A stretch of 52,924 bases of DNA from Sulfolobales archaeon (GTDB lineage Archaea; Thermoproteota; Thermoprotei_A; Sulfolobales; AG1): assembly GCA_038897115.1 (NCBI GenBank), contig JAWAXC010000006.1, forward strand, positions 1 through 52,924, read 5' to 3'. A program made the translations under genes and the position numbers. The notes below the pieces were generated by a model that made no database searches, had not been told where the DNA came from, and worked only from the letters and a program-made list of their open reading frames with translations. How positions within the stretch are numbered: position 1 is the stretch's first letter; the number at the start of each line of letters is the position of its first letter. Of the stretch, positions 3,179 to 40,944 are shown in pieces.

Positions 3179-3890
3179 GTGAGCCCTCTTTAAGGTAGCT
3201 CTTTTCATAGATTTAGATAACACACTCGTAACAAATCCTCTAGGAAGATATGTGATGCCTAAGATCTATGGGCTTGTTGCAGATATTATGGGAATAAGAT
3301 TTGAAGAAGTTGCTGAGATCTTTAAGAACAAGCATTTAGAAAGAATCAGAGTAGGGAGCCCTAGAGCTTATGATTGGGATGATATACTATATGAGGTTAT
3401 AGGGAGTCGTAATAGGATTTCTACAAACTTCCTGGAAGAGCTTAGAAGGGTCTGCCATAAAGCTGTGATCCTGGATGAAGCCCCAGAGATCCTTAAGAGG
3501 TTAAGGGAAAAGGGGTTCTATCTAGTGCTATCTACAAATGGGCTATGGAAGTACCAGGAATGTGTTTTAAGGGAAACAGGGCTAATAGATCTTTTTGATG
3601 AAATTATAACGCCAGATAAAAAGGGTTGTATAAAAAGTTCAAGAGAATTCTATGATATAGCTATTGAGCCTTTAGAGAAGATATCTATAGGGGATAACAT
3701 AGTATTCGATGTATATTATCCCAAGCTCTATAAGCTTAAAGCTATATATGTTAAGAGATCTGATTATGTGAACGAGGTCTATGGACAGGCTCTCGGCATA
3801 AGAATTGATCAAATAGTCCCTGACGCCATAATCTCTTCCCTATCACAACTGCCTAAGGCTCTTGAAGCAATCTTATCAAAGGGGAGTTAA
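3179..3890 (+). CDS. HAD-superfamily hydrolase with an apparent frameshift at its start
   Basis: HAD motifs are present: motif I DLDNTLV (about 3210-3230), motif II LSTNG, a lysine in PDKKG and motif IV SIGDNIVFD. The family is mainly phosphatases; the substrate is unknown. The in-frame region opens at 3183 but has no ATG, GTG or TTG before motif I, and the first in-frame starts (GTG 3252, ATG 3255) would delete motif I. Removing one T from TTT at 3189-3191 joins GTG 3179 to the frame and yields the normal start MSPLKVALFIDLDNTLV. It is followed after five bases by the Brix gene. Confidence 0.7.
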
Positions 3891-23740: not shown

Positions 23741-24079
23741 ACTCCCTCTTAGCCTTGACTATGAAGAACTATCAAACACTCACGATCCCTTCTTATAAAA
23801 CTATAGATAATACATCGGCTTAGGAATTTACCTCAAAACATTCTTATCTTCAATCGACCTATTCTCATTCTAGAGAAGACTTAAGCCTTGTTCGAAGAGA
23901 GTTTAATAGCGGTAGAAGTCTTCAAAAGCTTAAAATCCTTTGAGATGATTGAATCCGCTTTTGTAGAATCACCCTAGAGTGATGTTAGGAAGATCGGTGG
24001 AGTGGAAGAAATTATGATAAGCCCTAGCGTGGAAGGCTATCCTTAGGGGTTGGTCTTCATTGCAGTTCATCGTGTTTTA

Positions 24080-24215
24080 TATCTCCGCTCGCCCTCATAC
24101 CTCTTATGCTCTCTCCACACAGCCTACGGGAGTTAACCTCCCATCGGGGACGTGGAGAGCTTCCTCGGGCAGCTTCCTCTCCCCCGCATTGCTCATAGAG
24201 TTCATAGCGCCGCCC
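24080..24215 (-). ncRNA. Candidate structured non-coding RNA, family unknown
   Basis: This block is clearly GC-richer than its flanks, a known mark of stable RNAs in hyperthermophiles. On the minus strand GGGCGGC (24215-24209) pairs with GCTGCCC (24173-24167); GCTCTCCAC (24160-24152) pairs with GTGGAGAGAGC (24118-24108); inside that lies a perfect hairpin GGGAG/CTCCC (24142-24138 with 24132-24128). A TATA box at 24233-24243 predicts a start near 24212, at the first stem. GAGGAAGCT occurs twice, and GGGCTTATC follows downstream; these faintly recall RNase P RNA, but the P4 pairing does not work. The 3-prime end is uncertain and could extend to about 23968. Confidence 0.5.
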
Positions 24216-24232
24216 TCTAGCTAAACAGCCAG

Positions 24233-24243
24233 CTATAAAACTT
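24233..24243 (-). promoter_or_regulatory. TATA box for the structured RNA
   Basis: On the minus strand AAGTTTTATAG precedes the first stem of the structured RNA by about 20-25 bases, the right spacing for archaeal initiation near 24212-24215. Confidence 0.45.
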
Positions 24244-24394
24244 ATGCACTGGGTTATGTGGAGGGTGTTTAATAGGTATAGGTATATGGTATCTCCATAT
24301 CTAATAGACTTAAGAAGACTGTGCAAAATTGATATCAATATTTTTATAAATTAACATGAAACCAAAAACAGCAGTTAAGAGCAAAAGGCGCCTT

Positions 24395-39195: not shown

Positions 39196-40944
39196 ATGCA
39201 GCCTCCACTATTGTCTTCGGAGGAGGTTTTCAATAAATATATCAAGCCTAGGATATGGGTCAAGAGCTATGATGAGGGGGTTCCCCCAGATGTTGAGATA
39301 AAATATTTTCCGCTATATGAGATCCTTGATGAAGCTGTTAGGAGATATCCTAATAGAGATGCGCAAATCTTTATGGGTAGGAGGATTAGCTATAAAACAC
39401 TAGGGGATCATAGTGATAGGCTTGCACATGCTTTTAAAGAGATGGGGGTTGGAAAGGGAGATGTAATTGCTCTTCACATGCCAAATAGCCCCTCATATAC
39501 TATAGCGTTTTTCGCAGCCCTCAAGGTAGGGGCTATAGTTTCTCCAATGAATCCTCTCTATACACCTAGAGAGATAGCCTTCCAAATCAAATCCTCAGGA
39601 TCGAGGATCCTGGTGACCACCAACATCCTCTATAAAAATGCTGAGCAAGCCTTGAAGGAGGTAAAGGTTGAGAGGGTTATAGTAGCTGGTATTGAAGACT
39701 ATATGCCACCTCTTCTAAAGCCCCTGGCTAGGCTTAGGCTTAAACCGCCTAAGATAAGCTATAGTGATAAGATAGTAAGGCTATCTGATCTCATTAGGAG
39801 CTATAGCCCTTCTACATATAGGGAAAAGATCGATCCTCTTGAGGATATAGCAGCTCTTATGTATACAGGTGGAACTACAGGTGTGCCAAAGGGTGCTAAG
39901 ATTCTACATGGAAATATAGTGGCTAATCTACAACAGATAAAGCCCTTATATGATGTGATTAGAAAGAAGAGATCTGTTGAAGGTCCTATGAGGTTCATCG
40001 GGATCCTACCCTGGTACCATATATATGGCTTGGTAGTTGTCATGCTATACTCGATATACGATGGTGGAACTGTTATAGTGTTTCCAAGACCCGATATAGA
40101 GGGTCTGATGAAGAGTGTGGAAAAGTATAGAGCCCACGTTCTCCATGGAGTGCCGACCCTCTATAATGCGATAATTAATCATCCAAAGGTAGATAGGTAT
40201 AGGTTGAACACGCTTCTATTCTGTATATCAGGAGCAGCACCTCTACCAATAGAGGTTGCTAAGAGGTTTGAGGCGCGAACAGGTGCTGTTCTGAGAGAGG
40301 GCTATGGCTTAACGGAGACAGCTGTTGTAACCCACGTTAACCCCCTATATGGGAAGAATAAGTTGGGTAGCATAGGTATTCCAATACCCAGTACATATGC
40401 TGCCATAGCAGATCTAGAGAAACCCATCTTGCTCCCTCCGGGAGCTGTTGGTGAGATCGTGATCTCCGGGCCGCAGGTTATGAAGGGCTATACAGCTGAG
40501 GATGAGAATAGAGATGCATTCTTCACAGCACATGGTCTTAGATGGTTCAGAACAGGGGATATAGGTTATATGGATGAAGAGGGCTATTTCTATGTGCTGG
40601 ATAGAAAGAAAGAGATGATCAAGTATAAGGGCTATTCTGTATATCCAAGGGAGATAGAGGAGGTTCTAATGATGCATGAATGTGTTAAAGAAGCAGCTGT
40701 AGTGGGAATCCCAGCACCAGATGTTGGAGAGATCCCTAAGGCTTTTATAGTACTTAAAAGTGAGTGTAAGGATAAAGTTAGAGAGACTGATATATTGAAA
40801 TGGGTAGAGGATAAGTTAGCACCATATAAGAGGCCAAAGGTTGTAGAGTTTAGAGAGGAGCTCCCTAAAAGCCCTGTTGGAAAGATACTCAGAAGAGTTC
40901 TAAGGGATGAGGAGTTGAAGAAGCTCTCCCTAGGAGGAAAGTAA
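39196..40944 (+). CDS. Long/medium-chain acyl-CoA ligase (AMP-forming)
   Basis: Activates a carboxylic acid to its CoA thioester through an acyl-adenylate. Core motifs: the P-loop-like MYTGGTTGVPKGAK, EGYGLTETAVVTHVNP and FRTGDIGYMDEEGYFYVLDRKKEMIKYKGY-type hinge (seen as WFRTGDIGYMDE and LDRKKEMIKYKG), with the C-terminal catalytic lysine in KSPVGKILRR. About 582 residues. ATG 39196 follows AGGGG; TTG 39190 is an alternative. Divergent from the acyl-CoA dehydrogenase run, so the four genes probably serve one fatty-acid or aromatic-acid degradation route. Confidence 0.92.
   Translation: MQPPLLSSEEVFNKYIKPRIWVKSYDEGVPPDVEIKYFPLYEILDEAVRRYPNRDAQIFMGRRISYKTLGDHSDRLAHAFKEMGVGKGDVIALHMPNSPSYTIAFFAALKVGAIVSPMNPLYTPREIAFQIKSSGSRILVTTNILYKNAEQALKEVKVERVIVAGIEDYMPPLLKPLARLRLKPPKISYSDKIVRLSDLIRSYSPSTYREKIDPLEDIAALMYTGGTTGVPKGAKILHGNIVANLQQIKPLYDVIRKKRSVEGPMRFIGILPWYHIYGLVVVMLYSIYDGGTVIVFPRPDIEGLMKSVEKYRAHVLHGVPTLYNAIINHPKVDRYRLNTLLFCISGAAPLPIEVAKRFEARTGAVLREGYGLTETAVVTHVNPLYGKNKLGSIGIPIPSTYAAIADLEKPILLPPGAVGEIVISGPQVMKGYTAEDENRDAFFTAHGLRWFRTGDIGYMDEEGYFYVLDRKKEMIKYKGYSVYPREIEEVLMMHECVKEAAVVGIPAPDVGEIPKAFIVLKSECKDKVRETDILKWVEDKLAPYKRPKVVEFREELPKSPVGKILRRVLRDEELKKLSLGGK

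Follow-up and report, generated by a model that had tools for sequence, protein, structure and literature searches.

The window analysed here, a 52,924-nucleotide contig of a Sulfolobales archaeon (JAWAXC010000006.1), carries on its minus strand a structured RNA gene that forms the right end of a small mobile element. The features of the locus are listed below; R1 denotes a covariance model of the RNA that we built from 26 RNA rows of RNA-first searches, about six of them from autonomous elements.

24,045–24,217 (−), Sso133-type RNA, full-length model match (cmsearch with R1, 169 bits, E 5e-46)
24,233–24,240 (−), TATA box TTTTATAG, about 25 nt before P1, with a predicted start at about 24,213 (sequence)
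24,209–24,215 (−), P1 5′ arm GGGCGGC, 7 bp, double changes in 7/7 pairs among 26 sequences
24,167–24,173 (−), P1 3′ arm GCUGCCC (covariation alignment)
24,146–24,159 (−), P2 5′ arm, long central stem of about 10 bp plus two more (covariation alignment)
24,111–24,124 (−), P2 3′ arm (covariation alignment)
24,138–24,142 (−), P2a 5′ arm GGGAG, 5 bp, nearly invariant with few double changes
24,128–24,132 (−), P2a 3′ arm CUCCC (covariation alignment)
24,046–24,103 (−), P3, terminal hairpin, with a predicted kink-turn in Sulfolobales copies (alignment of copies)
24,046–24,379 (−), whole non-autonomous element copy, right end 24,046, left end 24,379 (alignment with other copies)
24,380–24,382 (−), host trinucleotide left of the element, GCU here and usually RCC, candidate TAM/target motif (copy alignments)

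A structured RNA with its own promoter

The initial annotation had proposed a minus-strand structured RNA with three stems and its own promoter in a GC-rich island that no protein explains, and all of these points hold. GC content is 0.51–0.59 across 24,050–24,249 compared to about 0.29–0.46 on either side, there is no plausible protein gene over the RNA region (the two listed ORFs of 93 and 54 aa are mechanical), and the TATA box lies where a start at stem 1 requires it. Among the Sulfolobales RNA copies a TATA-like box recurs between about −25 and −32, and one is also found upstream of RNAs adjoining distant TnpB-like genes. Folded as a single sequence, the window RNA reaches −59 kcal/mol (z −1.74), a value that 9 of 200 shuffled sequences equal, and as this is only modestly better than chance the folding alone is no proof of structure. 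The proof comes from covariation in 26 homologues, in which the named structure collects 97 double-change cells as opposed to 44.6 ± 5.2 after shuffling (none of 500 shuffles reaches the observed value) and 17–26 in slid controls, with a covariation score of 0.279 compared to 0.09–0.10 for the slid controls. The compensatory changes that the initial annotation had asked to see in relatives are present, and the structured RNA gene at the window locus, promoter included, is real.

P3 shows the pattern of a kink-turn, GGGG-NNU-GA...GA-CCCC (C stem, 3-nt bulge, tandem GA/GA, NC stem), in almost every Sulfolobales row of the subfamily, which suggests the kink-turn protein L7Ae as a putative helper. 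In the window copy this motif is degenerate (GAGG-UAU-GA...AA-CCCC) and the GA pair is lost.

The RNA belongs to a catalogued family

An Rfam search places the RNA in RF02814 (Sso133), which matches 24,175–24,111 (−) over its complete model (positions 1–73 of 73) with 49 bits and an E value of 1.2e-6. As this is above the gathering cut-off of 44 bits, the suggestion that the family might be undescribed fails by the condition set in the initial annotation itself, a significant Rfam hit. The accompanying rejection of RNase P stands, since archaeal RNase P RNA (RF00373) has no match in the window and the genome carries its own copy elsewhere (C43, 180 bits). Matches to SNORD19 and other weak Rfam matches on the RNA strand stay below cut-off, and no nucleotide match points to a phage or plasmid origin. 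Nine pattern matches in IMG/VR are chance hits, lying in enterobacterial and other unrelated contigs.

Rfam lists Sso133 as a Sulfolobus sRNA (Sulfolobus sRNA133), and our guess is that it came from an L7Ae co-immunoprecipitation set; we found no function assigned to the family in the open literature. Many S. solfataricus sRNAs, found by L7Ae co-immunoprecipitation and RNomics, are tied to transposase genes (PMC3432209, PMC3325985), and the L7Ae pull-down yielded trans and antisense RNAs (PMC3432209).

The RNA forms the right end of a dispersed short element

In the alignment the copies have sharp ends and about 300 bp in common, made up of a left end beginning TTTGGCTGCTGTTTT, the TATA box, and the RNA ending in GACCCC, its 3′ end coinciding exactly with the right end of the element. 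The RNA reaches past the interval 24,080–24,215 flagged in the initial annotation: the model match runs from 24,217 to 24,045 and the element spans 24,046–24,379. The window's own genome holds 10 copies at the Rfam level (RF02814 search) and at least 12 strong R1 copies. A BLAST search with one copy gave 25 matches, in which some single copies are split into pieces. Overall, there are about 20–25 diverged copies of the short element. Across the class R1 matches at least 42 of 229 genomes, with 12 candidates scored per genome and the R1 counts being lower bounds, and short elements consisting of left end and RNA are numerous in Saccharolobus too. In the sister genome G001 the syntenic locus has no copy, and the two genes flanking it lie much closer together there. 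The window copy is best explained as a stand-alone right end from a small mobile element of archaea.

Mobility of the element is well supported by such sequence comparisons. An insertion in genome G203, located between host TTGCC on the left and T on the right without target duplication, is absent from G204 and G205; in these genomes the two flanks meet to within 1–2 bases. This is the one clean empty site, the motif there reading GCG in G205; a second empty site is disturbed by other insertions. RCC precedes the left end in 17 of 20 copies of the window's own genome and in 17 of 19 short Saccharolobus copies, compared to a background of 2.3%; the former count leans on the alignment, the latter does not. 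This makes RCC a candidate TAM-like motif. For IS200/IS605 elements, the TAM is likewise the host motif that precedes the left end, and the sequence to the right of the right end serves as guide. No Y1 transposase is encoded in the element, nor was one detected in the window's genome using PF01797.

Several further observations concern the copies themselves. At one locus of this genome (L015:1501–1763, C1:84226–84488) the central hairpin is inverted in place with the rest of the element unflipped, as if the stem had turned. The window also contains weak R1 matches (14–15 bits, E 0.02–0.03) at 3,411–3,614 (+) and 40,060–40,161 (+), possibly decayed copies or chance. Weak Sso133 matches in four other genomes (L052 in G026, L054 in G010, L057 in G048 and L058 in G226) make up a further multicopy family, whose flanking hairpin differs (beginning CCGTGATGAACCCAGCCGTG) and which resembles the RNAs adjoining more distant TnpB-like genes (L125, L124).

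The full element encodes a TnpB-like protein

Sulfolobaceae carry the RNA as the right end of a 1.5-kb repeat, and full elements of about 1.5 kb occur in other Thermoproteia as well. Their order is left end, TnpB-like RuvC nuclease gene, small AbrB-like ORF, divergent promoter, and the RNA running outward to the right end. The small ORF (∼54 aa) precedes the large one and looks AbrB-like on visual inspection, a label that neither Pfam nor NCBIfam models support. The large ORF (∼368 aa in Sulfolobaceae) is read away from the RNA, and its product matches TIGR01765 (4e-20) and, below cut-off, TnpB and Cas12f2 models. An AlphaFold2 model computed with 26 relatives (pLDDT 87.8, pTM 0.83) supersedes a poor one from 5 sequences (pLDDT 58), and its best Foldseek matches in the PDB are Cas12f1 complexes (E 3e-10, TM 0.44–0.54). 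D216, E280 and D347 are invariant in the 26 sequences and would fit an active RuvC site; the cysteines of a C-terminal zinc ribbon motif are not seen in the large protein. The model thus suggests that the protein, as found in relatives and not in the window's own genome, is a Cas12f/TnpB-like fold nuclease with the D-E-D residues kept. No protein relative was found in viral contigs.

The RNA is strictly paired with the nuclease gene

The main result of our analysis is the strict pairing of the RNA with this gene. When loci were fetched by protein, 33 of 38 had an R1 match beside the ORF, and in all 33 the RNA lies upstream of and divergent to it on the opposite strand. The gap is mostly 154–214 bp, typically about 190 bp, and the larger gaps mostly reflect ORFs broken by stops or frameshifts. 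Pairing holds down to a protein identity of about 33%, many of the paired proteins being 33–50% identical to the starting one. Sequence comparison therefore gives good support to the view that the RNA is a constant, oppositely transcribed partner of the TnpB-like nuclease gene. Both the multicopy element and the nuclease partner were missed in the initial annotation because a single window could not show them.

Known TnpB omega-RNAs lie on the 3′ side of tnpB and on the same strand (PMC12558985), whereas here 33 of 33 RNAs occupy the 5′ side on the opposite strand. An R1 search of the 25 canonical tnpB loci of the window's own genome returned nothing comparable (best 21.8 bits). We also rejected the idea that the RNA is the omega-RNA of these genes, as the element does not adjoin them, save for one case in which a copy and a truncated tnpB match share a contig. 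The same assembly has 26 matches to the TnpB zinc-ribbon family PF07282 (L066–L091) and no Y1 transposase match. In a different setting, common to two Saccharolobus genomes (L038 and L039), an RNA copy adjoins the apparent start of an IS607-type serine recombinase (RPKEACQLLSISYSTLLRWIRE), which is downstream of the RNA.

A putative guide scaffold and its alternatives

We consider it probable (roughly 0.6) that the RNA is an omega-RNA-like guide scaffold of the TnpB/Cas12f-like nuclease, with the window holding a stand-alone right-end copy that is likely a passenger. In such a model the folded part of the RNA would bind the nuclease and might also bind L7Ae through the kink-turn; transcripts running on beyond the right end would take up host sequence as the guide, and the RNA–nuclease complex would recognise and cleave the empty site beside the RCC motif left of the element. 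Protein binding, guide use and DNA cleavage are here inferred. Counting against a guide are the divergent position of the RNA, the missing zinc ribbon and the lack of a Y1 transposase in the element and, by Pfam, in this genome.

If the RNA instead regulated transposition or the divergent AbrB-like/TnpB-like operon, in cis or in trans and in an antisense-like or L7Ae-binding manner, the divergent promoter layout with a small AbrB-like ORF in between would be readily accommodated, as would the S. solfataricus sRNAs tied to transposase genes and the trans and antisense RNAs of the L7Ae pull-down (PMC3432209). However, there is no overlap between the RNA and the nuclease mRNA, the RNA keeps its 3′ end at the element boundary, and the partner protein has a Cas12f/TnpB fold, an RNA-binding class. 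A regulator is the best of the alternatives and still an unlikely one. Less probable again is that the structure acts as DNA, providing subterminal right-end hairpins for a transposase with the RNA as a by-product. The structure is indeed the end of a mobile element and is kept in short copies along with the left end, but the TATA box is conserved at a fixed distance, three separate helices covary over 170 nt, far beyond what a transposase site needs, and Rfam lists the family as a Sulfolobus sRNA. A domestication of this genome's solo copies, which would make them fixed guides for host regulation that rely on a nuclease provided in trans, following the proposal for TldR-type systems, is very improbable in spite of the at least 12 strong copies lacking a detectable autonomous element, since no partner protein was found in the assembly, copies show signs of decay, and the sister genome has no counterpart of the window copy at the syntenic locus.

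Returning to the guide scaffold, the copies in the window's own genome seem to be orphans. The only match to the large protein there is weak (9e-8) and probably an ordinary TnpB, and together with the lack of a Y1 transposase this indicates that they are probably passengers mobilised in the past. The window copy itself, its kink-turn decayed, is likely such a passenger with no partner in its genome. For the family as a whole, we lean slightly towards a distinct Thermoproteia branch of RNA-guided transposon nucleases, in which the guide would be an independent opposite-strand gene with its own promoter that spreads alone in short elements and so seeds genomes with stand-alone guide RNAs.

Comparison with known systems

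The window copy shares the core sequence and structure of RF02814 and scores above its gathering threshold. However, the Rfam model covers 73 positions, whereas the unit described here is about 175 nt long, includes P1 and a terminal hairpin with the predicted kink-turn, and belongs to a mobile element. Our analysis offers a partner and a probable function for a catalogued archaeal sRNA family. Like Sulfolobus MITEs and PATE-type solo ends, the short copies retain both ends and no protein gene; unlike these, they carry a complete promoter and a structured RNA.

A precedent for tying an orphan structured RNA to a nuclease by co-occurrence is RAGATH-18, which proved to be the guide RNA (reRNA) of IS607 TnpB (PMC11061315), although in IS607 the TnpB gene precedes the RNA and the RNA fold is unrelated. 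With the TnpB–omegaRNA (OMEGA) systems of IS200/IS605 the present elements have in common a Cas12f-type RuvC nuclease, a structured RNA that is read outward and stops at the right end, a candidate target motif at the left end, and integration on the 3′ side of a short host motif with no duplication of the target (as seen at one empty site, in G204 and G205). They differ in that the RNA is transcribed from a promoter of its own, upstream of the nuclease gene and diverging from it on the other strand, and in having an AbrB-like ORF instead of tnpA and no zinc ribbon motif. We found no report of a divergent TnpB guide in the open-access literature, and an earlier description is possible. Thus, the RNA itself is a member of a known Rfam family, and the system would be a new OMEGA variant if the guide role holds. 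In that case TnpB-type guides need not derive from processing of the nuclease's own message, a compact (∼370 aa) thermophilic nuclease family would be on offer, and a separate divergent guide gene, closer to the tracrRNA/crRNA layout, would bear on the separation of guide and nuclease in Cas12 systems.
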